Below are positions 372-54,132 of a stretch of 64,000 nt of DNA, in pieces. The stretch's first letter is position 1; each line of letters starts with the position of its first letter. This stretch comes from Dryomyza anilis (Eukaryota > Arthropoda > Insecta > Diptera > Dryomyzidae): contig OX638133.1 of NCBI GenBank assembly GCA_951804985.1, forward strand, positions 56,190,028 through 56,254,027. Reading direction: 5' to 3'. The notes under the pieces are model-generated. The model saw nothing but the letters and a program-made list of their open reading frames with translations. It was not told where the DNA came from and ran no database searches. A program made the translations under genes and the position numbers.

Positions 372-1467
372 TGTAACGAGCCGGTTTCCGGGTTCAGAGC
401 TGGGATAGCTTAGCGGGCTCCAGTGGTCCGTACGTTACAAAATTTATAGTTGACAGGGGACCCCTCAAGACCCCTTTTCAAATAAATGCGCCGTACACCG
501 AGATTTTAATAATAGATAGTAGTTCTTTATTCATATAATTCCTTATTATATAATTATGGTTATAGGCTGCCTCTGCAGCTTAATTCATGCGTTTTGAATA
601 TGGCCGCATGTGGAACTTTCTTGTAGATTTCAGTATTCTGCTGGCCGCATGTGGCCGTTTTCTTCTGGGTTTCAATTATGCGGTGGCCGCATGTCTGGTT
701 ATAGGCTGCGTCTGCAGCTCAATTCATGCGTTTTGGATATGTCCGCATGTGGCACTTTCTGCTGGCCGCATGTGGCTGCTTTTGGTAATTGAGTAGTATG
801 TTTTTCAACCAAACTTACTCCTTGCTGGGGTTGTATTTCCGGTATGCTGCTAGTCCTGCGTGGTGTTGTACTTCTGGTATTGCTCTAACTGTCGGTACCC
901 ATGACCTGGGCGGGAAACTGGGTCAGTCGTTAGTGATTTTTCGTGTGGTCCCGTAGAATCCGGGGCCACTTGCTAGTCCACAGTATATCCTGTAGAAGCC
1001 GAGGATATACTGCCACTAGTCACTGTCGTCCGGGTCGAAGATCTATCGAAGAGAGCAGAGTAGAGAGAGACCGATTTTCACTTGTGCATCGCCTTTTATA
1101 GGCGAGCACTTGGTTGCCCAACTAGTTTGTAGCTTTGGCATGTTGGTGTGCCAAAGCTCGCTCACCACTGCGCATGTGTTAGCGATCTCCATGTCGCTTC
1201 GCTCACTAGCGCTTGTATAGTGGTGAGGCACACAGTGGTGATTTCTCTCGTTCGCTCACCACCGTGTGTGTGTAAACGACATACGTTGTAGCTTTGTTGG
1301 TGAGCTTTTGCTCCTCTGCGCCGCGTTGTTTCGGACGGCGTTGCTAGCGCCGTCGATTGGTGTCGTTCTCGCCGATATTGCGCGCCGATATTGCGCGCCG
1401 ATATTGCGCGCCGATATTGCGCACCGATATTGTGCGATTACATTTGCCGCCAAATGTGATCGTCACA
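372..1467 (-). repeat. 3' LTR of the Ulp1-carrying element
   Basis: This is about 1.1 kb and matches 12779-13916 along its length. Its ends are TGTAACGAGC on the left and GATCGTCACA on the right. Relative to the other LTR it lacks about 29 bases near 694 and about 38 bases near 1107, and it carries five rather than three copies of a 13-bp tandem unit (CCGATATTGCGCG) at 1372-1436. The motif GGCCGCATGTGG recurs in its left half. It contains no supported gene. Confidence 0.92.
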
Positions 1468-1477
1468 CCCCCCGCTT
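1468..1477 (-). promoter_or_regulatory. Polypurine tract next to the 3' LTR
   Basis: On the minus strand the sequence AAGCGGGGGG ends exactly where the LTR begins with TGTGACG. A purine run in this position is the usual primer for plus-strand DNA synthesis in LTR elements. Confidence 0.75.
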
Positions 1478-1775
1478 ACTCCGGGGTGCGAAAAGATGGC
1501 CGCGACAGTCGGGTGATGGTGACGTCCCCGGTGCGGCTGATGCGGATCCGGTACGTATAGCCGTCCACGGTACGTCTACAGGAAATCTCCTTGCCAGGCT
1601 TCTGTTGACGTATAGTCCTCGCCAGTTCCACCAATTCTGCTGGCATTGCCGTGATGTCATTAGTGTCCACGATCCGTGGTAGCTCGACCGCCTGCTTCTC
1701 ATCGTGCCGTGTTGCTGTCGTTGTTGGAGCGACCTCCCTCGCTGTCAACGTCGTGTGTACACCACCCTGCGGTGC
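1478..1775 (-). pseudogene. 3'-terminal coding remnant of the Ulp1-carrying element
   Basis: A minus-strand frame stays open from the LINE insertion point (about 1787) down to 1476, next to the purine tract. Its C-terminal ~85 residues look protein-like, with the segment DITAMPAELVELARTIRQQ and a basic segment YTYRIRISRTGDVTITRL. The N-terminal part is low complexity and resembles the repeat-rich sequence at 6830-6960 on the other side of the LINE, so the two were continuous before the LINE inserted. The first part of the frame as it stands now is translated from LINE tail and poly(A). I do not recognise a family. It may be the end of a longer accessory protein or a 3' untranslated region that happens to be open. 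Confidence 0.4.
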
Positions 1776-1788
1776 CACATGCAACAGT
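1776..1788. repeat. Target site duplication of the R1-like LINE (3' side)
   Basis: The 13 bases CACATGCAACAGT occur here, immediately before the poly(T) run, and again at 6815-6827 at the other end of the LINE. They mark a target-primed insertion into the host LTR element. Confidence 0.85.
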
Positions 1789-1812
1789 TTTTTTTTTTTT
1801 TTTTTTTTTTTT
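1788..1812 (-). other. Poly(A) tail of the LINE
   Basis: There are twenty-five uninterrupted T on the plus strand, the 3' poly(A) of the minus-strand LINE, abutting its target duplication. Confidence 0.9.
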
Positions 1813-1977
1813 GCATGGTAGCCGAGAGGTGTAATCTTCCAAAGATACGTATTAAAAATATTACGCATGCACGATTCGCTTCCATAGCGCCTACGTACTA
1901 AGCACCCCTCCCACTCGCTTCCTGTGTTTCCCTGCGGAACCGCCAGTTAAGGCATTACTTCGCAGGGCAGGATAGAG

Positions 1978-3360
1978 TCAGATATTCATCTGACTTCGTT
2001 CTTGTTGTTTCGTATATCGCCTCTGTTGGCTTTGATGCGTTTGTTCGTCATGTCGGACTCGTTGCATAATTTGGGTTATTATGCTGCCCGCGGCTTCCCA
2101 CGCATTTAAGGAGGTAAGCATGTACGCGATTACTCCTTCTGGAGACAGTACTCCGCTTGTGAGCTCCTCTATCTGGAGTCGGTCGCTGCCGAATCTCACG
2201 CAATCCATGAGCACATGCTCTGCATTCTCCACTTTCCCTACGCAGAATATGCAGTAGGGGTCGTCTGCGTGTTGGTACTTGTGGAGGTACTCTCTGAAGC
2301 ATCCGTGGCCGGAGAAGAACTGCGTTAGGTGGTAGCTGGTGTCGCCGTGTTTCCTTTCTACCCAGGTTCTCACATCGGGGATTAGCCTATGTGTCCATCG
2401 GCCTTTTGGCGAGGCGAGGCCTTCTATCGCCTGCATTATTGCAGGAGAGACTATGCCGTGTGTTTTATGGATGTTGCAGGCGTCTGCAGCCATGTTCGCC
2501 AGAATATCAATGGGGGTTCTACTAGCAATTATGTTTGCTACATCCTCCGATATTGTTCTGAATCCACAGCAGACTCGCAGTGATGTCAGCCTGTACGCTG
2601 ATTTGACTCCCTTCATGTACGATTGGCATTTTGTTGCCGGGGCCCATATTGGCGCTGCGTACATGATCGTCGACGTGTTTACGCTGGCCAGCAGTTTCCG
2701 GATAGGCTGTTTGGGGCCTCCGATGTTGGGCATCAACCTTGCTAGGGCGGCTCCTACTCGGGCGGCCTTGCTTCCACTCTGTGCCAGATGTTCTCTGAAG
2801 TTCAGCGTGTGGTCGAGCTGGGCTCCCAGGTATTTCAGTTGCGGCGAGGATTGGATAGTGTGTCCTCCGACCCGTATTTCGAAGCGTTCCACCTTTTTGC
2901 GACTGCTGATGAGTACGGCTTCGGTCTTGTGTTCTGCCAGTTGTAGGCCTGCGGTTCGTAGCCAAGACTTGATGCTTCCGATCGTAGCATTGCAGTTTTG
3001 GGCTACATCGCTGAGCATTTTGGCGACTACAACTATCGCAACATCATCCGCGTATCCGACGATGTGTACCCCTGCTGGCTTCTCGATTTTGAAGACTCCA
3101 TCGTACATGGTGTTCCACAGGACCGGGCCAAGGACTGAGCCTTGTGGCACTCCACCGGTTACCTTGTACTGTTTGGGGCCTGCGTCTGTGTCGTATGAGA
3201 GTGTCCTTTGCTGGAAATATTGGGATATTATCCTTAGCAAGTAATCTGGAGCTCCCATATTGCTTAATGCCATTAGGGTGTAGCTCCAGTTAGCAGAGTT
3301 GAACGCGTTTTTGATGTCTAAGGTCACCACTGCGCAATATTGTTTGTCGCCCCCAGCCAT
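1978..3360 (-). pseudogene. LINE ORF2, RT fingers/palm to C-terminus
   Basis: This 460-residue frame holds the reverse transcriptase palm: TLDIKNAFNSANW near residue 14 (motif A with its Asp), GGVPQGSVLGPVLWN near 68, and VGYADDVAIVV near 100, the catalytic YADD box. After the RT come a thumb region and a C-terminal Cys/His cluster (CIFCVGKVENAEHVLMDC), as in R1 and Jockey LINEs. The endonuclease and the first RT motifs lie upstream in other frames (3290-3961 and 3999-4952), so the ORF is broken by at least two frameshifts. The conserved residues visible in this segment look intact. Confidence 0.85.
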
Positions 3361-3961
3361 CTTTCGCCGGCAATGGCTTTGCTGGCGATGTCACACACTC
3401 TGGCGATAGCATCAACGGTGCTGCGCTACTTCTGAAGCCGAACTGCCATTCAGATAGGCCTGTCGGTCCCTCTGTGAGGCATTCGAGGCGGGTGCATATT
3501 ATTCGCTCGAGAACTTTCCCAGCTGTGTCGAGCATACAGAGTGGCCGGTGTGAGGACGGTTCCTCTGGAGGTTTGTCGCCTTTTGGTATGAGAACCAGTC
3601 GCTGGCGTTTCCAACGTTGTGGGAAGGTTCCTTCCTCTAGGCAAGTCGTATACAGTCGGCGGTAGATTTCTGGTTTCTTCTGCAGCGCCCTTTTCAGGAC
3701 ACAGTTCGGAATACCATCTAAGCCGGGAGTTTTGTTGATTTTGAGCCGATTGGCTGCATCTAGCACCTCAGTGGTGGTCACTGGAGGTATCGTTCCAATT
3801 TCGCAGCTAAGGCTTCTTGGGATGCTGAAGGGTTCGTGTTGCGGGAAGAGGCCTTCCACAATTTTGCCCATAATTTCCGGGCACATTGGTGCATTCCCTG
3901 CTTTCCCGTTAAGCTTTTTTAGCACAATTTTGTACGCGCTACCCCACGGGTTGCTCTGCAC
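3290..3961 (-). pseudogene. LINE ORF2, N-terminal part of RT domain
   Basis: This 223-residue frame carries the beginning of the RT domain, including NRLKINKTPGLDGIPN near residue 71, QRLVLIPKGDKPPEEPSSHR near 120 and the segment LTEGPTGLSEWQFGFR. These correspond to RT motifs before the palm in R1/Jockey elements. The reading frame shifts just upstream, where it leaves the endonuclease frame, and again near 3400, where it leaves the palm frame. The last ~40 residues are out of register and meaningless. Confidence 0.8.
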
Positions 3962-3998
3962 CTCTTCTCTAAGAGAGATAAAGGAGTCGCTTTTGCTT

Positions 3999-4952
3999 TT
4001 AGCAATGGCTTTTCGCAGCTGTTTCCTCTTCTCCTTGAAGTTGGCTTGGAGTTGTGCATGTCCAGCTCTTCCTCTCGAGCGTTGTTGTCACCTTCGTAGC
4101 TTGTGGCATTCTGCACGGATTTTGGCAATGACCATTCTTTTTCGTTTTTCGCGACATGGATGTGAAGCAGGCATTTGCAAGGTATCGCATAGTGTGTTCC
4201 GTTTGCAGTTCGGCATTTCCTTCCGTTCCTGTCATGTGTTCAATCATGTATTCTAGCACGTCGGCGTCTAGCTTCTTGATGTTCCAGCCATTCTGTTGCA
4301 CTTTCCTTTTAGGGTTGCGCAGAGTTGGGCCGTCGGGGTGTTTTGGTAGGATTGCAATCGCTTGGTGGTCGCTGTTTGTATACGCATCCATGACCTTCCA
4401 TTGTATGCATTTCGAGAGAGTCCTGCTGGCGAATGTTAGGTCAACAATCGATCCACCTCTCCCGTTGCAGAAGGTAAGGGTGTTGCCATGGTTCAGCAGT
4501 ACTAGGTCCAGTGATGCGAAGGCTTCCAGGAGGATTGTTCCTCTCCGGTTGGTTCGGACACTGCCCCATTCTGCTGCCCATGCGTTGAAGTCGCCTGCAA
4601 TTATGGCTGGTGACTTTCCTCTGGCATCGATAACTAGCCGGTCCAGCATGTCCTCGAAGTCATTTGTGCTCATACTTGGCACAGCATAGCAGCTGTAGAA
4701 GTGAATTCCTTTCACCTTAGCGTGTACGAAGCGATCGTGTTGTTTGATGTTTCTGCGTTCGAAGGCTGTTTTGCCACAAGTCCAGATTGACGCTTTTTCG
4801 GTCTTGTCTTCCGCCCATTTCGCGCTTCCGTTTGGGATTTTATATGGCTCACATATGAGGGCCACATCTATTCTATGTTCTGCAACTGTTTTTGACAGAA
4901 TGGCCTGCGCTGCCTCGCAGTGGTTCAGATTTATTTGTAGGCATCTAATCAT
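3999..4952 (-). pseudogene. LINE ORF2, apurinic-type endonuclease domain
   Basis: This frame opens ORF2 with MIRCLQINLNHCEAAQAI, the endonuclease-exonuclease-phosphatase start of R1-type LINEs. Key residues follow: LICEPYKIP (catalytic Glu), IIAGDFNAWAAEWGS (the Asp-Asn pair), GSIVDLTFAS and TNSDHQAI (Asp-His). The domain nicks target DNA to prime reverse transcription. The ATG overlaps the ORF1 stop in an ATGATTAG arrangement at 4945-4952. The frame runs out about 100 residues after the endonuclease because of a frameshift near 4000. Confidence 0.88.
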
Positions 4953-6255
4953 TCCGCTTGGCTCTCGAGCGGTACGCCGCCTTGTACGCTAGGCATCTGT
5001 AGCTGCCTGTGGGGTGCTCGTTGCCACCGCTACATCCTGGTTCACAGATGGCGCATTTTGGTTTGGCTTCGCATGTTTTTGCTTTGTGCCCCTTGTTGCC
5101 GCATCTGAAGCATAGGTCTTGTCGGTCTTCTTTATTCTGACATTGCCTCGATATGTGTCCGAATTCAAGGCACCTGTAGCATCGGGTCGGGTTGAAGTAC
5201 TCCCGTAGGCGACATCTTACCCAGCCAATGCGTACTCTTCCAGCTTTTAATAGCGCGTTCGCTGCCTCTGCTGGCAGGCTTATCTGTGCCGTTTGTGTGC
5301 CGTCTCGCATGGATCTGAGCGTCTTGATGGCGATGCGATCCGGCTCAGTTGCATCGGGAAACTGTTTTGCAATCGCACTACCGATTTCTTCTGGGGTGGT
5401 AGATTCGTCGATGTCCCGGCACTCTACCACTTCCATGTGGCAGAGGGTTCGGATGGTTGCCGAAGTTTTGAGCGTTCGCATCATTTCCTCCCTGTACTCA
5501 TCAACTTTGCTCACTCCATTGCTTTTCAGCTGAAGTATGAGCTCGCCTTTAGCTGTTCGCCGTATGGTTTTCACATTATCGCCGAGTTCCTTCAGCTCGG
5601 GTTGCGCCTTTATATGTTTCAGCATGTCGGCGTATGACCAGTCTCCTGTCTTGGCGATGACGATTGCATCTGGGCGTGTTGGGGGCCGCTTTGGAGGCTG
5701 CCTGGGTCCACCGTTTGCCCTTGGTTTTCTGCCCACGTTCTTCCACTCTCCCTCTGGTTTTCCAGATTGCCTGTTCGGGGCTGTGGTATTTTCTTTATTT
5801 TCGCTTCGCTTGTTCCCGCCTGTCAGGCCTGGAGGATCTATCGGTTTTTCTTGCCTCGGCGTTTCGCTTGCCTTTGTGGCCTCCCTCTTCCTCTTCGGGG
5901 GGGTTTGCCTAGGCTGTAGCAGTCCTTCTCGCTGGCGCTTGCCTTCGGCCGAGTGATTTTTTCGCGGTGTGGTTTGTTCTGGTCGGTTGGCCACTTCGCG
6001 CAATACTCTGCTGTGCAGTTGCTTAGATTCGAGCAGTAGGTCCCGCATCTGTTGGGTTATGTGGCGTCTCTTTTTGTCGCACATCAGCTCTATTAGTGTC
6101 TGTATGTTCAGACCAATTTGAGCGAGTGGGTCTCTGCCAGTCGCGGTATCTACTGTGGCTGTTCTCCTCTTGTGGTTCATCGAGTGTCTCCCCATCAGTA
6201 TCAGTTGCCACTGATAAGGCTCTTGGGGTGCCATACACTTCTGGCGAGCGAGCAA
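4945..6255 (-). pseudogene. LINE ORF1, gag-like RNA-binding protein with CCHC knuckles
   Basis: The protein is 436 residues in this frame. The middle is basic and proline-rich. The C-terminal third has zinc knuckles, CYRCLEFGHISRQC and CFRCGNKGHKAKTC, followed by a third Cys-rich segment (CAICEPGCSGGNEH), the usual three-knuckle arrangement of R1/Jockey ORF1 proteins. ORF1 proteins coat the LINE RNA. The true start is probably the ATG at 6478: another frame from 6478 to about 6150 reads as plausible ORF1 N-terminus, and a one-base shift near 6150 would connect the two. The stop overlaps the ORF2 start. Confidence 0.8.
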
Positions 6256-6478
6256 TCCTCGAAGTCCTTTTGAAGGGATTCACGTAGCTCACTTCGTTCA
6301 GCGTAGTTGTAGCTAGATCTGCTGCGGTGGCCAAGTGTGCCACTACCGTAGCATTGCGGTCGTTGGATAACGACGGCTGGGAGCCCGCTTGCTCACTCCC
6401 GATAGCCGCCGGCACTGGGGTTTTTAGGTCAACCTGCGCCGTAACATTTTTCTGTAAGTAACTTTCCATTAAAAACAT
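6150..6478 (-). pseudogene. LINE ORF1 N-terminal part, out of frame with the rest
   Basis: From the ATG at 6478 a frame gives an N-terminus rich in Ser, Thr and acidic residues (MFLMESYLQKNVTAQ...), which ends in sense near 6150, where the CCHC-bearing frame takes over. Such Ser/Thr-rich N-termini are common in R1/Jockey ORF1 proteins. The shift point is inferred from the change in composition, not proven. Confidence 0.5.
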
Positions 6479-6814
6479 TCTCCTCCTCCTTGCATTTTAA
6501 ACCTTCTGCCAGGTTTGTAAGCTGCCGCCCCTCTGGGGTCAGACGCAGACCAGGGAGCCGCCCATTCTGGGTCAGACGCTCCTGGGTTTTTTTTTTTTTT
6601 GTGAACACTTATTGAAGGGCGGTGTCATTTCGCCCTGTCACGCGAGCATCCTTGGGCCTATGCTGACTTTTATGTCGCACCCTCCGATCGCGTCGTCAAT
6701 GGTCGGGGACTGCTTATTTATCCACGGACTTATTCGCAGCTGGCCTACATATCTGTGCCGTTCAGCTATCCGCCACCTGCTGACCCCCACGATAGCCTAT
6801 GGCCTGGCCCCGTG
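6479..6814 (-). promoter_or_regulatory. LINE 5' leader
   Basis: This GC-richer non-coding stretch lies between the 5' target duplication and ORF1. It includes a 13-base A run (T at 6588-6600 on the plus strand) and two similar segments with TCAGACGC at about 6539 and 6572. R1/Jockey LINEs carry internal promoters here, but I see no specific motif. The A run could alternatively be the tail of a second small LINE fragment. Confidence 0.5.
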
Positions 6815-6827
6815 CACATGCAACAGT

Positions 6828-7069
6828 GTAGGTGCAGCCATCTGCCGCGCTGCTGTCGTCGTCTTTGTCGCTGGAGCGATCTCCCTCGCTGCTGTCGCCG
6901 TCTTCGTCGTCAACGTTGCTGGAGCGATCTCCCTCGCTGCTGTCGCCATCACGTTGCTGGAGCCATTCGTTGAAACGCCCGTTGCGCTGGCCGCTTTGCC
7001 AGATCAGGCCATACTGGGACCGCTGTCCCTTCCTCAGTTGCCAAAAGGCGGATCTGTCACGCTATGATC
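6828..7069 (-). pseudogene. Acidic Ser-rich repeat region after the Ulp1-like gene
   Basis: On the minus strand one frame reads a Trp/Gln/Arg segment followed by repeated acidic blocks of the type DGDSSEGDRSS and SDKDDDSS. Two near-identical 54-base DNA units lie at about 6856-6960, and a related piece lies beyond the LINE at 1700-1760. This frame is closed off from the Ulp1-like gene by its TAG stop and an 8-bp direct duplication (GATCATAG twice) at about 7054-7070. It may be a former acidic tail of the protease or a separate product. The function is unknown. Confidence 0.35.
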
Positions 7070-8041
7070 CTATGATCTACTCCGTTCCATCGGCGGATAC
7101 AGGTACCGCTGTGGGTCTCGTCGTAGGCACTCCACGTTCCGGAGCAAATATGCACCGCAGTCACACATATTTGGTTGCTGCGGGACGCTGACCTCATGGT
7201 AAGGCGTGTTGACCTCGGTGAACTCGTGGCCTACCTTGCCATCCTTGCGCGAAACTGCTGTCAGGAACTCACGCAGCCTCACTGACACGTGGCGACGGGT
7301 CTGTGTTGCCAGCGAATCCATCACTAGGATACACGGGCCCGTTGTGCGCGGTTCGATGCCTTGCGCGGCTCGCCACGCTGGATTATCCGGTGTCGCGCCA
7401 TTCATGCACAAAACTGCCAGGTACCAATGGTTCTGCTCGTTCACAGGCACCACCATTATGTCATGCGCGAACGGGTCCACACGCTTGGTCCATGTTCGCA
7501 CACATCTATCCACTCCGTTGGACAGACTGGCATGGAAAAATGTGTCGTACACGTGCATGCGACGTCCTGGTACCGCGTCTTCTACGTTCTGCTGCAACCA
7601 CTGCACCCAGAAGTTTATGATGGTGTCGTTGAGGAAGCGGCCATATGCCAGGCGGCGGTAATCCCCAACGGTTATAGGCACTCCTCGTATACCCGGCGGG
7701 TATTTACATAACTGGTGTGCATCACCTAGGTGGCTGGGTGCCGTGTCGCTTGGTGCCACTAGCGTCGTCTGGTCCGTCTGCTGCTCAGCCCGGAACCGTT
7801 TGCTTGCCTGTGCTTCGGCGTCTAATGTGGACGGTGTCGCTTGCAGGTTGCTCCCCTCTGCAAGGAAGTGCTGCGTTGCTGTCGACGATGTGCGCAATAT
7901 TGCGCGCAGCTCTTGGCGACTATCTTTGGTCAAGCCACCGTCGTCTAATGGTGCGCCATCTCCCTGGCGGAGCATCGCCAATAGTTGCAGCCGATATTCG
8001 CCCGCGTCCTGCTCTACATTCATCATCTTGCGTTGACTCAT
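7070..8041 (-). CDS. Ulp1/SENP-like cysteine protease (C48) carried by the LTR element
   Basis: This 323-residue ORF starts at an ATG at 8041 and is uninterrupted. Residues 1-110 are low-complexity and not recognised. Residues 115-310 match the Ulp1/SENP fold, which cleaves SUMO or related ubiquitin-like proteins: RRLAYGRFLNDTIINFWVQW (129-148) is the substrate-side signature, NEQNHWYLAVL (201-211) holds catalytic His205, VMDSL (240-244) Asp242, and PQQPNMCDCGAYLL (287-300) Gln288 and nucleophile Cys295. All four catalytic positions are present. It lies downstream of integrase, in the same orientation, inside the LTR element, where env would sit in env-bearing elements. A TTTTTCAAG/TAG stretch just upstream could be a splice acceptor for a subgenomic mRNA. 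No signal peptide or membrane segment is visible. I am confident of the family; the target and role in the element are unknown. Confidence 0.93.
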   Translation of the reverse strand: MSQRKMMNVEQDAGEYRLQLLAMLRQGDGAPLDDGGLTKDSRQELRAILRTSSTATQHFLAEGSNLQATPSTLDAEAQASKRFRAEQQTDQTTLVAPSDTAPSHLGDAHQLCKYPPGIRGVPITVGDYRRLAYGRFLNDTIINFWVQWLQQNVEDAVPGRRMHVYDTFFHASLSNGVDRCVRTWTKRVDPFAHDIMVVPVNEQNHWYLAVLCMNGATPDNPAWRAAQGIEPRTTGPCILVMDSLATQTRRHVSVRLREFLTAVSRKDGKVGHEFTEVNTPYHEVSVPQQPNMCDCGAYLLRNVECLRRDPQRYLYPPMERSRS

Positions 8042-8411
8042 CTTATCTACTTGAAAAACTTTTAATTATATCGTATTTACTTAAAGACTTTAAATTATTT
8101 GCGCTCCACACGTGTTGGTCGTTTGACTGTCGCGAAATTAATGTCGAACGTATTTGTGTGTTGGCTTCTTCGTGCCCCACACTTCGCGAATTGTTACGCC
8201 AAATTCCGCGAAACGCCAACGTTTGAATTTGTAACGTCCGCCGATCATGTACGAACGTTACGCACACCACCATTTTTGTATGTGTGTATCCGCGTCGTGT
8301 CTTTCTCGCCGAGAGCGCCTGCGCTTCGCCGTTGATTGTTTTCGCGGTGAGTTTTGCCACTCTCGACCATGGTGTATCTCTCTGTCACGGTTTGTGCGAT
8401 TTTCGGTGTAT
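8042..8411. other. Intergenic spacer between integrase tail and Ulp1-like gene
   Basis: This spacer of about 370 bp has no recognisable protein. The minus-strand frame at 8043-8360 has no family resemblance and biased composition. It is a plausible site for a splice acceptor or internal promoter serving the downstream protease gene. Confidence 0.4.
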
Positions 8412-8714
8412 TTAAGTTTTCGCCTCCGTCATATTTTTAATGGTTTCTAAAATGTTTGCGATCTTTTCAGCGCGACTTTCCATCTCCCATGGATTTAAAT
8501 TGCGCTGCACCGAGCGTTGTTGCCTCATGCGACTCTGACTCGAATTATGCTCCCTTGAGCGTTGATTTACCACGCGACATTTTAAATTATTATGCTCCAT
8601 TGAGCGTTGATTTTCCCCGCGACATTTTAGTTTATTATGCCCTTTTGAGCGTTGATTTTCCACGCGACAATTTAAATTATTATGCTCCCTTGGCGTTGAT
8701 TTTCTACGCGACAA
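8412..8714 (-). pseudogene. Integrase C-terminal tail, frameshifted continuation
   Basis: These 100 residues continue the 15-residue repeats (consensus NCRVENQRSREHNKL) of the integrase tail. They end in a unique segment, AEKIANILETIKNMTEAKT, that looks like a short amphipathic helix. The frame differs from the upstream integrase tail because the 45-bp unit beginning at 8679 has lost one base (TTGGCG for TTGAGCG). Without that loss the two frames would be one ORF. Confidence 0.6.
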
Positions 8715-8813
8715 TTTAATTTATTATGCTCCCTTGAGCGTTGATTTTCTACGCGACAATTTAATTTATTATGCTCCCTTGAGCGTTGATTTTCCACGCG
8801 ACATTGTAATTTG
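8544..8813 (-). repeat. 45-bp in-frame tandem repeat in the integrase tail
   Basis: Six units begin at 8544, 8589, 8634, 8679, 8723 and 8768, each marked by ATTATGCTCC; the spacing is 45 except for one 44. Each unit encodes 15 residues with Arg, Asn and Gln in excess. The period is a multiple of three, as expected if the repeat was expanded under coding constraint, and one unit carries a frame-breaking deletion. Confidence 0.93.
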
Positions 8814-9392
8814 TTCGTATAGCGGACGGGAATCGTCACCCCCGGTGGCGTCGGGACCCGAAACGGATTCAAAGGTTTTGCTGAATTATAACCGCGGTCG
8901 TTGCTGCTTTGACCACTCTGTGGTGCACTTGGCTGTTGCTGTCTACGTGTTGCGGTTACCGCCGTTGCTATTTGCACCTCCTGGCGCCGCTCGTCTTCGC
9001 CATCTCGATGAAACTGCTTCAGTTCCCCTACATGAACTGCTCGTGTCTTCGACTGCCCCAATCCTTTCACTCGTGCTATGACATGCGCGTCAAAGTTGAT
9101 TACCCGATACGGTCTGTCAAATTTCGGTGCTAATTTCGCCGCAAATCCGTCGGCCGCCTTAGACAGGTGGTGCTGCTTCACTAGTACCAGCTCACCCACT
9201 TCTGGTTTCCATGCTCTTCGCCGTAGATTGTAGTGGCGCGCTTGATCCTGCGCCGCCCGTGCTAGTTGCCTCTTCACTAGTCCAAATACCTCTCGTTGCT
9301 CGTTCATCCGGTGTCGGTGCCTCTGCCCCTGTCCCTATAGTAACCTCGTCGTACAGTGCCTTCGGGAGTCGTGGCTCCCGTCCTTGAGTCAA
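8672..9392 (-). pseudogene. Integrase C-terminal domain and repeat tail
   Basis: From 9307 a frame gives QARHYNLRRRAWKPEVGELV, then KFDRPYRVINFDAHVIARV, the C-terminal DNA-binding region typical of Ty3/gypsy integrases, followed by a Gln-rich stretch and the 15-residue repeats. The preceding segment (9192-9392) is in another frame and overlaps the end of the core domain, so there is a frameshift near 9300-9390. In this family the module binds the element ends and host chromatin. Confidence 0.75.
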
Positions 9393-10318
9393 ATATGCCG
9401 GACTGTAGTCTCAGACACACTTGTATTGATAGCCAATGCAATCTCCGGCAACTGCTCGTCCCATCTGTTCTGCCGGTGTCCTGCCAACTGCGCTATTATT
9501 GTCTTCAGTGTCCGGTTTGTCCTCTCAGTAGGGTTTTCCTGCGGCGTGTATGGAGCCGTGAACTGCTGTCTCACGCCCATGTCCTGAAGAAACCGCCTGA
9601 ATGCCTTGCTAGTAAATTGCGCTCCATTATCAGTAATGAGCACCTTAGGGACGCCATATCTCGCCAGAATACGCTCCCTAAACGCCCGCTGTAGGCTGTC
9701 ACTGGTTGCCTTGCGCAATGGCACCATCTCGGTCCATTTTGAAAATTTATCAAAAAATACCATCAGCATTGTGTTGCCGTGTTTGGAGCGTCGTATGGGA
9801 CCCACAAAATCTGCACACAGCCAGGACCATGGCTCCTGTGCGATCCTGGTCAACATTTTGCCTGCAGGTTTCTGCTGCGATCTTTGGCATGATTCACAAT
9901 TACGCACGTACCGTCGTATTGTCCAACTCATGCCCGGCCAGAAATATCGCTTTGCCACGCGTGCGATCGTTTTGCGGACACCCATGTGTCCCGCGGTGGC
10001 GTCAACGTGATTCTCGCGCATCACATGTGCGCGTCGCGGTGTTGGGACGCATAGCTTCCAAGCTACTCCCTCATTGTCTTCGGTGCGTTGCGGTAGGTTC
10101 CTATACAAATTACCATCCTCTATGGCATAGTCAGGAAACTTCTCCGGCTGTTCTCGTACCTCGTTCATGCGTCTGTCCGTCCATGGACAACGATCCTCGG
10201 TTGGTGTCTCCTCTCCGGTCTTCCTCAGTGTCTTCAACGCATTAGTTTTCTGCTCGCTGGGTATGTCGGGTCGCACCACTGTGCATATTGCCGGCTGTTG
10301 TTCTGATGACTGCGTCAC
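9389..10318 (-). pseudogene. Integrase: zinc-binding and catalytic core
   Basis: The 310-residue frame begins with about 95 residues of linker and then shows the HHCC module: HVDATAGHMGVRKTIARV with CESCQRS. The core has the three acidic residues: CADFVGPIRRS (Asp), VLITDNGAQFTSKAF (Asp) and YTPQENPTERTNRTLK (Glu). Integrase joins the reverse-transcribed DNA to target DNA. The frame ends near the core end at 9389 and the C-terminal domain follows in another frame. Upstream, only about 20 bases separate it from the protease ORF, although a complete pol would have about 1.8 kb of RT and RNase H there. Confidence 0.9.
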
Positions 10319-10339
10319 ATCTCCTAAGGTAACGCTCTG

Positions 10340-10645
10340 TCACCCGCAACTCAAAGTGGCTCCTGCCCGCTGCAGAAAGTCCATCCCGAGGATGATGTGG
10401 TCCACCACTGTGGGTAGCACCAGTAGTGTTAAAGGGCACTCTCTATCTCCGAGTCTGCCGATCGCCACTATCTCCTCGCTAACGTGCCTGGTGGCACCAT
10501 CCGCCATGCTCACCCTGACATCGGTGCTCCTACTATTAAATGGTGTGCGTATCATTTTTGCGCAAGCCTCGCTCACGAAACTCCTTGTTGCGCCTGTGTC
10601 AACTGTTGCGATTGCCAACTCGTTGTCGATGGCGATTGTAGCCAC
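10340..10645 (-). pseudogene. Retropepsin-like aspartic protease
   Basis: This 101-residue frame has AIATVDTGATRSFVSEA near the start (the DTGA active-site loop) and DHIILGMDFLQRAGATL near the end (the hydrophobic-Gly motif of retropepsins). It is about the right size for one subunit of the dimeric enzyme that cuts Gag and Pol. It follows gag with a short gap in a different frame, so expression by frameshift or a lesion is possible. It stops where an RT would be expected to start. Confidence 0.85.
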
Positions 10646-10716
10646 TATTCGGGTCGCTTCCTCTTAAAGCGCCACTGCTGGATACGGGGAGCTGTCTTTG
10701 GGACCGCCAGCCCTCG

Positions 10717-12303
10717 CTACTGACTGGTCGCCTGGTAGTTTCCCGAACGTCGTCGGCAGCAGTCAACGGTGCGTACGCCTCTGCGTCCGCAATCCCAACA
10801 AAATACTACCTCACCATTACGGCAATCTGCCTGGTAATGTCCGTCGCGTCCGCAACGCCTGCATGCGGTCTTCGTGTTGATGTTCGTCTTGGCTGCATCA
10901 TCTAGTCGCCGATTATGCTCCTCTCGTGGCCGTGTTGTGTGTTGTGCCGGTGCGTGCCCCATCTTCTGAATAAGATCATATTCATCTGCCAAATCCACCA
11001 ATTCCTCCACAGTGGAAAAGTCACGGCGCCGAATGTAGAGCTGGTACTCCTGGCGGCTATTCCTAAAAATTTTATCCAGCTCCGTCTGCTGATCATAGTG
11101 GGCATGCCTCATCATGTCCTTGATCCCGATGACATAGTCGCGAAATGTCTCCCGCGGCCGTTGTATTCGTTTGCTGATTCCAGCGTCGAGGTCCTCAAAG
11201 AAACGCGGTGGCAGGAAGAACCTCAAAAATCCTTTTTTGAATTCACTCCATACCCGCCACGGCGAGTAGTTGTTCCTGTACCATGTTAGCGCTCTTCCTT
11301 GTAGCAGATCCGCCAATCCGTATGGAACCCAATCGCAGTCAACCCCGTAGACTTGCGTCAGCTCCTCTATCCGCTCGATGAACACCAGCGGATCGCTGCT
11401 GCCATTAAAATGCACTGGCCACTTCCTCATTCGCTCCATAGCGATCTCGTATTTCACCTTTGCTCCTATATGAGCCGCTGGCCCTTGCTGATGGACTGGC
11501 GCCGCGCCTGTCGCCAATGCCCAAGTCCGTCCGTCCGATGGCCGTGGTCCCATGACCCTGTCATATGCCATATGCGCCTGTCGCGCCATATGCGCCTGTG
11601 GTGACTGCGGTGCCTGCTGCACCTGTGGTTGTTCCTGAAGTTTCTGCTGTTGCACCATTTGCGCCTGTTGAATTCGTTCCTCCCTGTGTATCAACTGCTG
11701 CGCCACTTGCGCCTGTTGTTGCTCCTGTTCCATCAATTGCTGCGCCAATTGTGCCTGTTGAGCCCGTTGCTGAGCCTGTTGCTCCATTTGCTGTCGTAGC
11801 TGCTGCGCCATTTGCGTGATTTGTGCCTGTTGTTGTTCCTGTTGTTTCAACTGTTGCGCCAGTTGAGTAAGTTGCGCCTGGTGCGCCATTGGTGCCTGTG
11901 CCCACGTCGTTGAAAATGTGTATGGTAACGTCGTCCCTACCGACATTACCGGCCTAGTGACGAACGTGGGCAGTGTCCACGTCTGCTCGCTCGTTGTAAA
12001 AAATATTTTTAACTCACCCGCAGGTAGTGTTGTTTCGCTCGTTGTCTGTCCAGTGAGTGGTACCCTCAATGATTCCTGTTCTACAGCTCCTGTCGTCGGC
12101 AATGGTGAGACACTCTTGCTGTGTCGCAGCTCCAGTTTCTTCAGCCTCTCCGTCTCATTGCTGCCATAATTCCCTTCGTTGATGAAGGCGACGAAGCTCT
12201 TCCGCACCTCCTCTACGGTGCCAGCGCCGTTGAATCCAAATTCTGCTGCGTACGTAGTTAGGTCCTCCTTCCGGAGACCATACACCCATGTCACCTTGAC
12301 CAT
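10717..12303 (-). CDS. Gag polyprotein
   Basis: The start is taken at the ATG at 12303, which has a good context (GCCATGG) and is followed by MVKVTWVYGLRKEDL; an in-frame ATG at 12342 adds only a Lys-rich leader. The N-terminus (LRKEDLTTYAAEFGFNG) resembles a SAP-type helix pair seen in some insect gypsy gags. A Gln-rich coiled region of about 140 residues follows (repeats such as QQLKQQEQQQAQ), then a capsid-like region with WPVHFNGSSDPLVFIERIEE and a retrotransposon gag motif (DYVIGIKDMMRHA). Near the C-terminus are a CCHC knuckle, CRRCGRDGHYQADC, and a second Cys-rich motif, CWDCGRRGVRTVDC. The frame is fully open. Gag forms the particle that packages element RNA. Confidence 0.9.
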   Translation of the reverse strand: MVKVTWVYGLRKEDLTTYAAEFGFNGAGTVEEVRKSFVAFINEGNYGSNETERLKKLELRHSKSVSPLPTTGAVEQESLRVPLTGQTTSETTLPAGELKIFFTTSEQTWTLPTFVTRPVMSVGTTLPYTFSTTWAQAPMAHQAQLTQLAQQLKQQEQQQAQITQMAQQLRQQMEQQAQQRAQQAQLAQQLMEQEQQQAQVAQQLIHREERIQQAQMVQQQKLQEQPQVQQAPQSPQAHMARQAHMAYDRVMGPRPSDGRTWALATGAAPVHQQGPAAHIGAKVKYEIAMERMRKWPVHFNGSSDPLVFIERIEELTQVYGVDCDWVPYGLADLLQGRALTWYRNNYSPWRVWSEFKKGFLRFFLPPRFFEDLDAGISKRIQRPRETFRDYVIGIKDMMRHAHYDQQTELDKIFRNSRQEYQLYIRRRDFSTVEELVDLADEYDLIQKMGHAPAQHTTRPREEHNRRLDDAAKTNINTKTACRRCGRDGHYQADCRNGEVVFCWDCGRRGVRTVDCCRRRSGNYQATSQ

Positions 12304-12760
12304 GGCTGTTCTATTCACCTTTTTTTTCCTCCTTTTTTTCACTTATTCACTCACTGTTTTTTCCCCTTTTTGGTTTTTCATTCTCTTTTTTTTCAATTGT
12401 TTTCATTTGGGATTTTCTCACTTTTATTCAGGCTTTTTTTTCTGTTTCTTTTATCGTTCGCGGGGTTTTCTTTTCACTGCCTGTTCTCTTTTTTTTCACT
12501 TTTCATTCGTTTATTTTTTTTTCAAAGTTTCTTTCTCTATTTTTTTTTCACTGTCTATGTTCACTGTTCACTTTATTCACTACTGCGACGATCGTTGCTC
12601 TGCTTATTTTCCGCGGCTTTACTTATTTTTCGACGCTCTGCTTATTTTTCGCTGCTTTGGTTATTTTCGACGCTCTGCTTATTTTTCGCTGCTTTGGTTA
12701 TTTTCGACGCTCTGCTTATTTTTCGCTGCTTTGGTTATTTTCGACGCGTTGTACTGAGGG
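12304..12760 (-). promoter_or_regulatory. 5' leader of the LTR element
   Basis: This non-coding leader lies between the primer site and gag. It is purine-rich on the element's strand (long T tracts on the plus strand, 12320-12560). Next to the primer site is a 37-bp tandem repeat (12631-12741; CGACGCTCTG at 12631, 12668, 12705 and, partly, 12742). It may hold packaging signals; no particular motif is recognised. Confidence 0.6.
12631..12741 (-). repeat. 37-bp tandem repeat in the leader
   Basis: There are three exact-period units of 37 bases (CGACGCTCTGCTTATTTTTC... and so on) with the start of a fourth at 12742, located between the gag start and the primer binding site. Confidence 0.9.
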
Positions 12761-12778
12761 GTCCCTGCTCGGGCGCCA
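12761..12778 (-). promoter_or_regulatory. Primer binding site, tRNA-Lys type
   Basis: On the minus strand TGGCGCCCGAGCAGGGAC directly follows the 5' LTR. It is complementary to the 3' end of a lysine tRNA of the type used by several retroviruses, with one difference in 18 from the pattern I know. It sets the orientation of the element and the LTR boundary. Confidence 0.85.
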
Positions 12779-13916
12779 TGTAACGAGCCGGTTTCCGGGT
12801 TCAGAGCTGGGATAGCTTAGCGGGCTCCAGTGGTCCGTACGTTACAAAATTTATAGTTGACAGGGGACCCCTCAAGACCCCTTTTCAAATAAATACGCCG
12901 TACACCGAGATTTTAATAATAGATAGTAGTTCTTTATTCATATAATTCCTTATTATATAATTATGGTTATAGGCTGCCTCTGCAGCTTAATTCATGCGTT
13001 TTGAATATGGCCGCATGTGGCACTTTCTTGTAGATTTCAGTATTCTGCTGGCCGCATGTGGCCGTTTTCTTCTGGGTTTCAATTATGCGGTGGCCGCATG
13101 TGGCTGCTTTTGAGTAATTAAGTAGGATGTCTGGTTATAGGCTGCGTCTGCAGCTCAATTCATGCGTTTTGGATATGGCCGCATGTGGCACTTTCTGCTG
13201 GCCGCATGTGGCTGCTTTTGGTAATTGAGTAGTATGTTTTTCAACCAAACTTACTCCTTGCTGGGGTTGTATTTCCGGTATGCTGCTAGTCCTGCGTGGT
13301 GTTGTACTTCTGGTATTGCTCTAACTGTCGGTACCCATGACCAGGGCGGGAAACTGGGTCAGTCGTTAGTGATTTTTCGTGTGGTCCCGTAGAATCCGGG
13401 GCCACATGCTAGTCCACAGTATATCCTGTAGAAGCCGAGGATATACTGCCACTAGTCACTATCGTCCGGGTCGAAGATCTATCGAAGAGAGCAGAGTAGA
13501 GAGAGACCGATTTTCACTTGTGCATCGCCTTTTATAGGCGAGCACTTGGTGAAGCGTTGGTGCATTGTAGCACGTCGTTGGTTCTTTGTTGCCCAACTAT
13601 TTTGTAGCTTTGGCATGTTGGTGTGCCAAAGCTCGCTCACCACTGCGCATGTGTTAGCGATCTACATGTCGCTTCGCTCACTAGCGCTTGTATAGTGGTG
13701 AGGCACACAGTGGTGACTTCTCTCGTTCGCTCACCACCGTGTGTGTGTAAACGACATACGTTGTAGCTTTGTTGGTGAGCTTTTGCTCCTCTGCGCCTCG
13801 TTGTTTCGGACGGCGTTGCTAGCGCCGTCGATTGGTGTCGTTCTCGCCGATATTGCGCGCCGATATAGCGCACCGATATTGTGCGATTACATTTGCCGCC
13901 AAATGTGATCGTCACA
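12779..13916 (-). repeat. 5' LTR of the Ulp1-carrying element
   Basis: This LTR is 1138 bases, starts TGTAACGAGC and ends GATCGTCACA on the plus strand. It should contain the promoter and start of the element transcript. It has three copies of the 13-bp unit CCGATATTGCGCG (13856-13892, degenerate) where the other LTR has five. Confidence 0.92.
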
Positions 13917-17778: not shown

Positions 17779-18705
17779 AACTGTGAAAATGTTCATATAT
17801 TTTTTTTTTGGTTTTATAAGTTAAATGAAATAATGCACATGGAACTTAGCTTAAGAAAACTTCTTGATTTTACAATTAACTAAAAAACTATGTATAAAAG
17901 TAAAACAAAAATAATAATGTGCATAGCACAGTGCATATGCACAATCGATGTAATCTCTAGCGTAGCGAAGAAAAAAAATAAAAACATTGTTTTGTCTATT
18001 TTATCTTTTTGAAGCGACTTTGGAAGCACTTTTGAAGCTATTTACCGCTTCAAAAGTGCTTCACATACCTTTTTTTAAGATGTTTATATTCTTTAGCCTT
18101 GAAAAGCAAAACAAATAAATAAAAACACACATCTTCATTAATGTTCACGTTCATATATATTTTGCACGTTTTTTGTTGTTCAATATTTAGTAATATCATG
18201 AATTCTTTTCTTTTTTTCGTTATTACCTTAAAAACATAAAAAATACATTAAAATGATAAAAAACGCTCTTCTTGAATTTCTTCCAGTGTTAGTCTTGCAC
18301 TGGCTCTTGTTCTAGCATTTCTTATCTTGCTCTTGTTCTTGCAAAAAAATCTCGATATTGTTCTCGCTCTTGTTCTTGCAAAAAATGTAAGAACAAGAAC
18401 TAATGTAAACAAATATCTGCCTTATACTTGAAATGTCGAATTTGCACTTCATTTTTCGTATTTCCTTAAATAGTTACTGAGATGTTAATAATTTGAAACT
18501 TTTTTTTAATTTTTTCTTGAATTGCCATTTGTTTATGTCCTTAATTGAGCTGTTTTAAAAAAATCACTCAAAAATCAATTAAAAGACTTATAAATGGTAT
18601 TCTATTCAATAGATCCTTTAAAAGAATTTAAAAATATTCAAATGAACTTTTCCAAACTTGTCCCACTTTACCCCAAGCTCCTCTATACATTTACTATATA
18701 TTTGT
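17779..18705. repeat. Duplicated repeat U, copy U2 (uninterrupted)
   Basis: This matches 1-371 joined to 13917-14457 and represents the site without the LTR element (junction at about 18175). It starts at ACTGTGAAAATGTTC, the same word at which the third, short copy (37128-37319) begins, so this is a likely true repeat end. The 14-bp hairpin recurs at 18023-18062 and the CTTGTTCTTGC cluster at 18300-18400. Confidence 0.8.
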
Positions 18706-21700
18706 GAATGTTCAGAATGGTGTAGTGCACGCGCAAGTCAGTAACAGACTTCTGTTAGTTGCCATAGCCTCTCCTACACAATTCCTAGTCTCACCTTCGC
18801 GTTGATGAACCCCGTTAACCTGAGCAACCAGCTGAAGATCGGGTTTCAACCCCGATGGGAGGTCTGGTCGGGGACAAACGAGACAGGCATATTGGCCCTC
18901 CAAAATGGGGGTTGTGCGTTGGGTTTGTGACCCGCCATATAAAAAAGCTGATTCAACGACAACAGAAAAAATGCCTCAAAAAGGACCATGATTTACTGAT
19001 GCACCTGGATGTCCGAACCCTTTATAGGGAAGGTGCCACTATCCAGCTGGTTGATGTCCTCGAAAGATACAAGGCTGACATCACCACAATCCAGGAAATG
19101 CGATGGACAGGACAGGGCTGCTCTAAACAGGCATCCTGTGACATTTACTACAGCTGCCATGAGTAGAGGCATGAATTTGGTTGTGGATTTGTAGTCAGCA
19201 AGAGACTCCGCCACCTTGTCTCTAGGTTCACACCCGTGAACGAACGACTAGCAACAATCCGCATCAAGGCTAAATACTTCTACATCAGCCTAATTTGTGC
19301 GCATGCTCCGACGAATGAGAAGGACGATGAAAGAGACTTTCTATGAGCGCATCGACGAAGCCTATGAGCGCTGCCCCCGTCACGACATCAAAATTGTGAT
19401 TGGCGACTTGCCAAGGTGGGCCTTGAGAGTATCTTTGATTCAACGGTTGAACAATTCAGCCACCACGACAACACCTCCGACAATGGAATGAGGCGGATCG
19501 ACTTCGCCGCAGCACGAAATATGTTAATTAGTGGTACTAGATTCAAGTATCTCAATATTCACAAGGCCACGTGGCGGTCACCCGATCAGAACACGCGCAA
19601 CCAAATTGATCATGTTGTGATCGACGGAAGGCACGCTTCTAGTGTGATGGATGTACGCTCGATCCGAAATGCCAACATCGACTCCTTGTAGCAGCCAAGG
19701 TTTGCACACGCTTATGCGCTGCGAAAAACGCACAGAAACCCACGCAAAAAAAGCTAGACGTCAGTAAGCTGCACACACAACAGACCGAACAAGTCAATTC
19801 CGCTCGACTCTCACACCTGCTTGCCCAAGGCGCTCCCCCTCTCGATGTTATATGCGCGCAGTGGACACACGTCTCCCGCTCAATGCGAACGGATGCCGAA
19901 GAGGTGCTTGGATTCCAACGTCCACTACGGAACAAGTGGTATGACGAAGAGTGTCGCGCAGCTACTGCAGAGAAAGATGCTGCATGTAGAACCACCCTGC
20001 AGTCGCTGCATATAGAACCACCCTACAAAGAGAAGAGGAAGGAGGAGAGACATCTTCTTAGGCGCAAGAAAAGAGAATTAGAAAGACGCGAGTGTGAAAA
20101 TATTGAGATGCATGGTGACAGGAACGAGACTCGAAAATTCTTTCAGAAGATAAGACGACTGACCGGAGGTTTAAAGACCGGACCCTCTTCTTGTCAGGAC
20201 GATGACTTGAATCTAGTAACAGATGTCCAGGGTACACTGAGATTATGGAGAGAGCACTTCTCTGATCTTCTAGCAGGCGATTATGACAACTATTCCGCTG
20301 AAAGAGAAGACAGCTTGACAACCCCAGTTGCTGACGACGGCGTTGACATACCGCCGCCTGACTGTGAAGAGGTCTGCACAGCCATCAGGCTGAAAAACAA
20401 CAAAGCCGCAGGATCGGATGGTCTGCCTGCTGAGTTGTTAAAGACCGGAGTCGATGAGCTCATAACGAGCATGCGCCAGCTCATCAGCAGAATATGGTCA
20501 GAAGAAAGCATGCCTAGCGAATGGAATCTCAGTATACTCTGCCCAATCCTTAAGAAGGGGGATCCCACGATACGCGCCAACTACCGTGGAGTAAGTCTTC
20601 TCAACATCGCATATAAAGGTCTAACGAGCGTATTATGTGAAAGACTGAAGCCCATCGTCAACAGACTGATTTGATCTTATTAGTGCGGCTTCAAACGTGG
20701 CAAGTCCACCATAGAACCGATTTTCACATTGCGTCAAAATCCTGGAAAAGACCAAAGAGAGGCAGATCGGCACCCACCACTTCTTCTTCGACTACAAAGC
20801 TGCCTTCGACAGTCCGATAAGAAGTCGCCTATACGCCACCATGCCTGAGTTCGGTATACCTGCGAAACTTATAAGGCTTTGCAGGATGACCCTGGGCGAC
20901 ACACGTTGCTCAGTGAGAATTGGGAACAACCTCACCGATACATTTAATATCGAACGAGGTTTCAGACAAGGCGATTCCCTATCGTGTAACCTTTTTCAAC
21001 CTAATAATGGAGAAGATTGTAAGAGCTGAACAACTCCATCACAATGGCACTATCTTCAACAAGAGTTCCATGCTGCTCGGGTACGCTGATGATATCGACA
21101 ACATTGGGCAGAGCGTACGAGCCGCAGTCAGTGCAGCATTCTCTAGTTTAGAGAGGGAATCGCGTCGAATGGGTCTTACAGTAAACGAGGACAAGACGAA
21201 GTACCTAGTGTCAACATACAAAAAGTCCCGGCGTCTTGGACAACACGTCACTATTGACAACCACAACTTCGAAGTTATGAAGGACCTCGTATACCTCCAG
21301 CATCAACAAGAAAAACAATGTCAGCCTGGAGATTAGCCGAAGAATAACTCTTGCCAACAGGTGTTACTTTGGGCTCAGTAGGCAATAGAGGACCAGAGCC
21401 CTCTCGACGGACAAAAATTACGCTCTATAAGTCGCTCATCATGTCAGTCCCCTCTATGGCGTTGAGGCATGGACGCTTGCCAACTTTAGGAGCGTTCGAG
21501 AGAAAGATTCTTCGGAAAATCTATGGCCCGATATGCGTTGAAAACGAGTACAGAATCAGATGGAACAACGAGCTGTACGCCGACATTAACATAGTCAGGC
21601 GCATTAAGATCCAACGCCTACACTGGCTTGGACATGTCGAGCGTATGGATGAAAGCGGTCCAGCAAAAAAGGTGTTCAATTCTGTACCCAGTGGTGGTCA

Positions 21701-25290: not shown

Positions 25291-26076
<786 letters not shown>

Positions 26077-26405
26077 TTACTTTTTCCCGGTTTATAATGA
26101 ATTTCGAAATCATATTCCGATAATTTGTGTCGGAAACGCGCAAGACGTGATGTCTGATCTTTTATGTTTGCTATACCCTTTAGGGGCTGATGATCTGTAT
26201 AAATTTTAAATGGTCTTCCCAAAAGATATGCCCTAAATTTTTTTGTTGCCCATAAAATTGCCAAAATTTCTTTTTCTATAGTAGAATAGCGTGTTTCCGC
26301 ATCCTTAAGAGACCTACTGGCAAACGCGATCGGACGGTCGCTTCCAACTTCACCTTGCGAAAGAACCGCGCCAATTGCTTCGTTGCTGGCGTCTGTCGTG
26401 AGCAA
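26077..26405 (-). pseudogene. RNase H of element A1, truncated
   Basis: The frame shows [37 protein letters not shown] and [13 protein letters not shown], the Ty3/gypsy RNase H, which removes RNA from the RNA/DNA hybrid. It ends in the segment [13 protein letters not shown] at the truncation point. A 27-base stretch present in A2 is missing just upstream, near 26408. Confidence 0.88.
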
Positions 26406-26587
26406 AAAGTATGGGTGGTGACATAATTGCCTCCTTAAGTTTTAAAAACGAATTCTGACAATTGTGATTCCATGTGAACTTAGCGTCCGTTTTAAGCAAA
26501 CAGTTTATTGGTAATGACAGTTTCGCCATACCTCCTATAAATTTTCTGTAATAATTAATTAAGCCTAAAAATGCTTGAACTTCCTTC

Positions 26588-27700: not shown

Positions 27701-27765
27701 GGCTGTTCTGGGCTGTACCCTGATTTGTTGATTAAAATTAATATCTTCTATGTCTTGTAATGATT

Positions 27766-30012: not shown

Positions 30013-30130
30013 GTCAACTAATCTTTCTAATTCACCATTTTCAATTTGGGTTTTTTACGTATTTCGTCCTCCTCCCTTCGTTCTACGTCCTCCTTCCCAG
30101 TCTCGGTCCTTGAGAAGTTGGTAACGACGT

Positions 30131-30143
30131 ACCGGCTGCGCCA
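30131..30143 (-). promoter_or_regulatory. Primer binding site of element A1, tRNA-Ser type
   Basis: On the minus strand TGGCGCAGCCGGT lies two bases after the LTR. It is close to the serine-tRNA primer sites of the Drosophila 297/17.6 group as I remember them. The same sequence is at about 57226-57238 in A2. Confidence 0.65.
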
Positions 30144-30145
30144 AA

Positions 30146-52715: not shown

Positions 52716-52721
52716 TATCCT

Positions 52722-53249: not shown

Positions 53250-53265
53250 AGATGCAACTTCTTCT

Positions 53266-54130: not shown

Positions 54131-54132
54131 AA

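Follow-up and report, generated by a model that had tools for sequence, protein, structure and literature searches.

The window analysed here is a 64,000-nucleotide stretch of the Dryomyza anilis genome. On its minus strand lies an LTR retrotransposon with an ORF for a C48 (Ulp1/SENP-type) protease. Read in the sense of the element, the order is gag, protease, integrase, 45-bp repeats, C48 ORF, LINE, C-terminal remnant and 3' LTR, at the following window coordinates.

372..13916, minus strand: Ty3/gypsy LTR element of the RT-less subfamily A, with a third ORF (ORF3) carrying C48; target site duplication ACTT on both sides
12779..13916, minus strand: 5' LTR, 1138 bp
10717..12342, minus strand: gag ORF, 541 aa, with a weak zinc-knuckle match; homologue of gag in dipteran gypsy proteins
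10340..10645, minus strand: aspartic protease
9389..10318, minus strand: integrase, H2C2 zinc domain and rve core, directly after the protease; RT/RNase H absent
8861..9307, minus strand: integrase C-terminal region with a GPY/F-like motif; frame damage between core and tail
8469..8860, minus strand: 45-bp tandem repeats, the spacer between pol and ORF3
7070..8041, minus strand: ORF3 N-terminal region and most of a SENP6/7-type C48 domain; catalytic residues present, domain end lost
1788..6814, minus strand: nested LINE with endonuclease and RT ORFs and a 3' poly-A, splitting ORF3; 12-bp target site duplication copies at 1776-1787 and 6815-6826
1476..1790, minus strand: remnant of the ORF3 C terminus with the conserved terminal motif, adjoining the 3' LTR
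372..1467, minus strand: 3' LTR, 1096 bp; 11 substitutions relative to the 5' LTR

The two LTRs and the 4-bp target site duplication (ACTT/ACTT) place this copy among the Ty3/gypsy elements (Metaviridae). The LTR pair differs at 11 of 1070 aligned sites (K 0.010), with three gap runs, and a paralogue of the insertion site at approximately 17807-20858 of the window has no element at the insertion point. Reverse transcriptase is absent between protease and integrase, a GPY/F-like motif is present in the C-terminal region of the integrase, and the integrase reading frame is broken between 9389 and 9307, much as the first-pass annotation had described (a frameshifted integrase near an open C48 ORF). 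LTR and domain mapping also agreed with its placement of that ORF in the element's own orientation, between integrase and 3' LTR. The gag ORF (10717-12342) weakly resembles the Arc capsid domain (E 0.012). Outside the element, extended direct and inverted repeats that are nearly identical (mostly 90-98%) occupy 26071-36910 and 51901-64000; they look like further gypsy elements and their tandem or segmental duplicates.

The C48 ORF (323 aa; 7070-8041, minus strand) matches Peptidase_C48 (Pfam PF02902) at E 5.7e-21, and its best relative in the PDB is SENP7 (E 2e-26), with the best SENP2 at E 2.5e-17. The catalytic residues listed in the annotation, His205, Asp242, Gln288 and Cys295, are all in place, as is FLNDTIINFW; in a five-sequence alignment His, Gln and Cys are invariant and Asp is replaced by Asn in one relative. 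Codon usage of the ORF compared with the element's gag and integrase gives a cosine of 0.90 in its own frame and no more than 0.77 in any of the other five. Judged by its sequence, the ORF is a genuine member of the C48 peptidase family, in the SENP6/7 (Ulp2) group. A structure model built from six sequences is of low quality (mean pLDDT 55.5), and its top fold matches are still SENP7. A viral structure library gave no match to the model at E 0.001 or better and viral_contigs scans found no relative; searches with the C48 protein returned four and one proteins, of which none is named as insect and none has listed domains that would make it an LTR element.

The annotation had called this a complete SENP-type gene within an LTR element. 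The C48 domain with its four catalytic residues stands; completeness does not, as the end of the domain is lost, the frame is broken and a LINE has inserted. When the three frames behind the ORF were compared with cellular SENPs to locate the missing end, nothing significant emerged. In subfamilies A, B and C the domain extends beyond the window ORF's stop (a WFSG... segment) and is followed by a linker and a C-terminal motif; this continuation in relatives settles the truncation. The window ORF is the damaged front part of a larger ORF3 gene.

A search of the genome with the window C48 gave at least 127 matches in 656.6 Mb (124 of 261 candidates scored). Their identity to the window C48 sorts them into subfamilies A (89-96%), B (∼73%), C (∼51%, over a longer match) and D (43-46%), with intermediates; the letters are our own. 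Ten copies, picked from the C48 matches and hence chosen for having C48, were read with their flanks. Each of them carries C48 together with gag, protease and some pol sequence, flanked by a pair of direct repeats (98.3-100% identity) that we read as LTRs. In A2, B1 and C2 the pairs are 100% identical, which marks the family as recently mobile. The seven copies of B, C, D and E show gag followed by the order PR-RT-RNase H-INT, as in Ty3/gypsy elements. ORF3 and pol are separate frames in the copies read, with a spacer between them. The flanks of A2 and A3 also contain matches to the window's 45-bp spacer repeats.

In 8 of the 10 relatives read, ORF3 is a separate frame of 614-896 aa that comprises an N-terminal region, the SENP6/7 (Ulp2)-type C48 protease, a low-complexity linker and a C-terminal motif. 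Its stop-to-stop frames measure 883, 806, 879, 896, 832, 832, 614 and 662 aa in eight of the ten copies and are shorter (501 and 485 aa) in the remaining two. C48 was the sole Pfam domain in the four ORF3s scanned, above cut-off in each; no env of the kind that occupies ORF3 in Errantivirus was found in these. Across the 47 loci read, which are mostly best matches and hence biased to intact copies, all four catalytic residues are kept by pattern in 40, and 34 of these also lack a stop in the domain. In one C-like copy, E1 (L049/L050, G000:C7:12857201-12873201), the C48 domain is partly duplicated in tandem within a single open frame. The two D copies read (L045-L048) have unusually long LTR-like repeats of 2.6-2.8 kb with much internal repetition.

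Subfamily A has lost RT/RNase H in 4 of 4 copies (the window copy, at the junction at 10318-10340, and three others; L031, L033, L035). The distance from protease to integrase anchor is 192-205 bp in the three measurable A copies versus 1546-1738 bp in the seven B, C, D and E copies. With no RT and with LTR pairs up to 100% identical, subfamily A is best described, from its sequences, as a non-autonomous family that moved recently. Copy A2 (L005) has also lost most of its integrase, of which only the ends are kept, and retains gag, protease and ORF3. The integrase tail was undetected in 9 of 24 A loci, of which six show both ends of the deletion, and these ends coincide; one locus, L016, was counted without a tail in another tally (10 of 30 loci) and not in this one, which used a longer query. 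All six copies that share this deletion of most of integrase (L005, L012-L015, L018) keep the C48 domain open. The flank of L005 alone shows gag and protease and the loss of RT; the flanks of the other five are too short for this.

Is the protease a feature of the lineage or of a few copies? We searched the genome with the integrase (128 scored matches out of 8794 candidates) and counted a C48 as associated when it lay within 5 kb downstream on the same strand. At 79% or more identity to the window integrase, 57 integrases were scored: C48 lies downstream of 49 and was undetected for 8. By integrase identity, the association is 14/14 at 92-100%, 16/17 at 86-91%, 19/26 at 79-85% and 2/3 at 72-78%; among scored matches at lower identity it is 2/24 at 69-71%, 0/32 at 66-68% and 0/12 at 60-65%. 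Starting from C48 instead, a scored integrase lies upstream of 53 of the 114 merged loci, and of none after a 1-Mb shift. The annotation's suggestion of a gypsy lineage with a SENP-type protease is upheld by these counts and by the ten flanked copies, which speak against a one-off event. Integrase matches with no detected C48 may reflect absence, a diverged C48 or unscored matches; in one copy at 71%, the 1.2 kb covered where C48 would be expected gave only weak matches (E 0.011). The more distant integrase subgroups seem to do without C48. Matches at 67-71% (e.g., C4:21650822 and C4:71762809) are present in many copies with long open pol frames, often of 1227 or 1298 aa, and C48 is undetected in most of these related gypsy subgroups.

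The C48 domains of the elements in this genome form one clade (support 97/95; 99/96 on the N-terminal half), which falls on the SENP6/7 side of the tree and not with SENP1/2 (100/99 and 98/99). Within it, A branches with B, then C, then D, the same order as by integrase identity. Could the fold nonetheless have been turned to another modifier, such as ubiquitin or NEDD8, or serve as a binding module? The fold search also lists C48-fold relatives solved with ubiquitin or NEDD8 (XopD, NopD and a NEDD8 protease); with the sequence and the 100/99 placement pointing to SENP6/7 and the catalytic residues kept, we think this distinctly unlikely.

A genome search with fish SENP7b (53 of 519 candidates scored) gave one match that, by its place, is not in an element, C5:83352112-83352501 (46% identity). 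A gap separates this match from the next coding piece, and there is an acidic insert behind. Such a layout would be expected of an intron-bearing gene, and we presume the match to be an exon of the host SENP6/7. This presumed exon is 33-36% identical to the element domains and 44-45% to fish and coral SENP6/7, and it is placed as sister to the element clade with support (88/92) that is not decisive. Because its identity to the element domains is only 33-36%, the capture of C48 would be old. Read most simply, the sequences point to a single, old capture from the SENP6/7 gene of an insect, which preceded the A-D split and was followed by faster evolution. The annotation had also raised a recent host capture. 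We rejected this, as the presumed exon is interrupted and nearer to coral and fish SENP6/7 than to the element, and no near-identical host gene was seen among the scored candidates. Two other origins were set aside as well. For a nested DNA transposon carrying C48, 6800-9420 has one 12-nt palindrome and no inverted-repeat arms, and the spacing between C48 and integrase is similar in many copies. For a processed host retrogene, no poly-A of its own was seen, and the poly-A tracts behind the ORF probably lie in the nested LINE.

The dN/dS comparison that the annotation had proposed gave values well below 1 in most cases. Between A and B, C48 has dN 0.114 and dS 1.20 (ratio 0.095), and integrase has dN 0.018 and dS 0.95 (ratio 0.019), so that dN of C48 is ∼6 times that of integrase. 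Between D and D2, C48 has dN 0.254 with dS saturated (a nominal ratio of 0.089), and RT-RH has dN 0.031 with dS 0.96. In the remaining comparisons between families dS is saturated. The ratio is 0.23 for a close pair in C and 0.30 for one in D. Within subfamilies, pN/pS of C48 is 0.18 in A (15 open copies, leaving out stop-carrying and not fully covered ones), 0.21 in C (8 copies) and 0.63 in B (6 copies with very few differences). For a set of 23 copies including broken ones it is 0.22 (codon bootstrap 0.16-0.31), and for seven with a stop in the domain, a set that omits L022 (scores listed as identical to those of L021), it is 0.27 (0.18-0.39). C48 is also the best conserved part of ORF3 (A-B 79%, A-C 58%, A-D 43%), exceeding the N-terminal part in all ten pairs.

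This pattern indicates that purifying selection has kept the C48 sequence, which is hard to read as a dead passenger. It is true that many copies are damaged, the window's included, and that captured fragments mostly end as pseudogenes (PMC13317346). However, the domain is still open in four subfamilies, at 40-79% identity to one another, His, Asp, Gln and Cys persist in 40 of 47 loci, and dN/dS is ∼0.09-0.30 where computable, apart from the low-difference B set. A functionless host fragment that was captured once and amplified with the element is thus disfavoured and, in our judgement, very improbable.

The copies with deletions bear on a different proposal, that C48 helps integration or subsequent repair. 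Such a role was suggested for the Ulp1/OTU domains of Ginger1 by its discoverers (PMC2836005). The six copies that share the integrase deletion have a C48 pN/pS of 0.15 (codon bootstrap 0.05-0.32), and seven copies with an integrase tail have 0.17 (0.09-0.31); the bootstrap ignores the relatedness of copies, and the open copies were selected ones. Selection on C48 is therefore equally strong in open copies that share the deletion, in a subfamily where 9 of 24 loci have no detected tail. Other copies could supply integrase to the deleted ones, and template switching between co-packaged RNAs could carry a selected C48 into them. On balance, we consider a role in integration or repair unlikely.

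Relatives outside this genome add to the picture. A search with the window integrase returned 100 proteins. Flies account for the majority of those with a named source (Drosophila, Eurosta, Musca, Calliphora and Lucilia), and the weaker matches include a few other insects, plants, fungi and one fish. One of the 100, P0022 (1483 aa, from an ENA contig of 6.4 kb), is a Pol protein with PR-RT-RH-INT-GPY/F followed by a fused C48 (residues 1104-1273, E 5e-21), nearest to SENP7 (74.9 bits versus 39 for SENP2). The annotation had asked whether homologues sit between LTRs beside integrase elsewhere; they do in other copies here, and P0022 provides a related Pol with C48 from another source. It is the sole C48 match among the 100 integrase relatives, in a type of search to which a C48 in a separate ORF is invisible. 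An integrase tree of the window and those 76 of the 100 hits with sufficient length puts P0022 in the same 41-row group as the window (SH-aLRT 98), though not as its sister. An AU test on whether the P0022 C48 shares the capture of the element clade gave p 0.28 and 0.31.

The fusion in P0022 bears on whether C48 acts on the element's own proteins, deSUMOylating Gag, integrase or pre-integration complexes or trimming the polyprotein, and so aiding assembly or nuclear entry. Fused directly behind integrase, C48 would travel with Pol, and A2, with most of its integrase deleted, keeps gag, protease and ORF3 together. In this genome, however, ORF3 is separate from pol and follows a spacer, the element already has an aspartic protease, and C48 diverges much faster than integrase and RT, which fits a changing host target better. 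We regard action on the element's own proteins as possible and rather doubtful.

To our knowledge, few transposon-encoded counter-measures to silencing are known in animals. Our full-text searches of open-licence PMC papers turned up no description of an insect LTR retrotransposon with a C48 ORF. One paper that came up, on whitefly piRNA clusters, treats a SENP1-annotated gene as a target (PMC6413925). The nearest known systems are Ginger1 and the plant KIU/VANC elements. Ginger1, as described in PMC2836005, resembles this family, and P0022 in particular, in the order of a gypsy-type integrase with GPY/F and then an Ulp1 (C48) domain. However, Ginger1 is a cut-and-paste DNA transposon with terminal inverted repeats and no gag, RT or LTR. 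The family described here instead has LTRs, gag, protease, RT (in the B, C, D and E copies) and C48 in its own ORF. The Ulp1-carrying VANDAL MULEs of the KIU/VANC type also keep a captured Ulp1 within a transposon family, and VANC is an anti-silencing system; these are plant DNA transposons, and the precise function of their Ulp1 is stated as unknown in PMC13317346.

Among LTR elements, the bdelloid Vesta and Juno retrotransposons carry a host-type enzyme (GDSL esterase or DEDDy exonuclease) in an ORF3 behind pol; the enzymes are different, and the word SUMO is absent from the text searched (PMC5408684). An orchid Ty3/Gypsy lineage has likewise added a modification-removing enzyme, an AlkB-type m6A demethylase ORF, although its target is RNA methylation and its hosts are plants (PMC9289625). 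The cellular SENP6/7 (Ulp2) proteins share the catalytic domain, the motifs and the side of the tree. They differ in that the presumed host gene is interrupted, with an acidic insert after the exon, whereas in the elements a single open frame encodes a compact domain.

What might such an enzyme do for the element? SENP6/7 and Ulp2 act on poly-SUMO chains. The retention of an intact enzyme suggests, as far as sequence can, a use against or upon the host. With roughly even confidence, we propose a Ty3/gypsy lineage with a captured SENP6/7-type protease in ORF3 that strips SUMO from host silencing proteins. Under this explanation, the SENP6/7 (Ulp2)-type catalytic domain would have been captured, most simply once, before the A-D split and carried since then in the third ORF, between pol and the 3' LTR. 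From its family membership, the protein would cleave SUMO, probably as poly-SUMO chains. With less certainty than SUMO cleavage itself, it may remove SUMO from host proteins responsible for silencing the element (the piRNA/Su(var)2-10/SetDB1 route). DeSUMOylation would act best for the copy that encodes the protease, and because the benefit would fall on that copy, C48 would be kept in copies without RT or most of integrase. SUMO takes part in transposon silencing in flies (PMC7272611), and opposing SUMO-dependent silencing is our leading hypothesis. Against a SUMO-specific role, C48 relatives can act on ubiquitin or NEDD8. A gypsy lineage that keeps an apparently selected deSUMOylase-like gene, beside sister subgroups apparently without it, makes the contest between retroelements and SUMO-dependent silencing directly testable, and derivatives stripped of RT and, in part, integrase add to this.

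The region between pol and the 3' LTR may have a wider connection with SUMO. A profile of Pol C termini, built from P0028, P0031, P0033 and P0097 with the window and P0022 left out, was run against the window in six frames (1493 fragments of at least 25 aa). The one significant match (E 8e-6) is the remnant beside the 3' LTR; because of this match, the window ORF3 ends like the Pol extensions of those four relatives, in which no C48 was detected. The C terminus of P0022 matches the same profile at E 0.07. Some Pol C-terminal extensions also contain stretches that resemble SUMO-interacting motifs (SIMs), such as IIVISDAESD in P0097 (Musca autumnalis) and IIVISDEEMP in P0087 (Drosophila palustris). 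Under a stricter SIM pattern, 3 of the 22 extensions have one motif each, a total equalled or exceeded in 23 of 5000 shuffles. A looser pattern, partly shaped after seeing the sequences, finds 6 motifs in 5 of 22 extensions, one of them in the C48-bearing P0022 (1 of 3000 shuffles as high), and 18 in the 77 Pol bodies, a count reached in 4 of 60 shuffles; the composite protein P0018 was dropped from these pooled tests. A search of the ten ORF3s found no SIM-like stretch in eight; of the matches in D1, one lies inside the catalytic domain. We treat the SIM-like stretches as a lead only.

More tentatively than the proposal above, and as the less probable of the two, we suggest that the region between pol and the 3' LTR could be a standing SUMO interface, with a protease in some subfamilies, SIM-like Pol extensions in others and a shared C-terminal motif. 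It would then be an anti-silencing cassette acting mainly for its own copy, hence kept by RT-less and integrase-deleted derivatives, and an animal retroelement counterpart of plant VANC/KIU.
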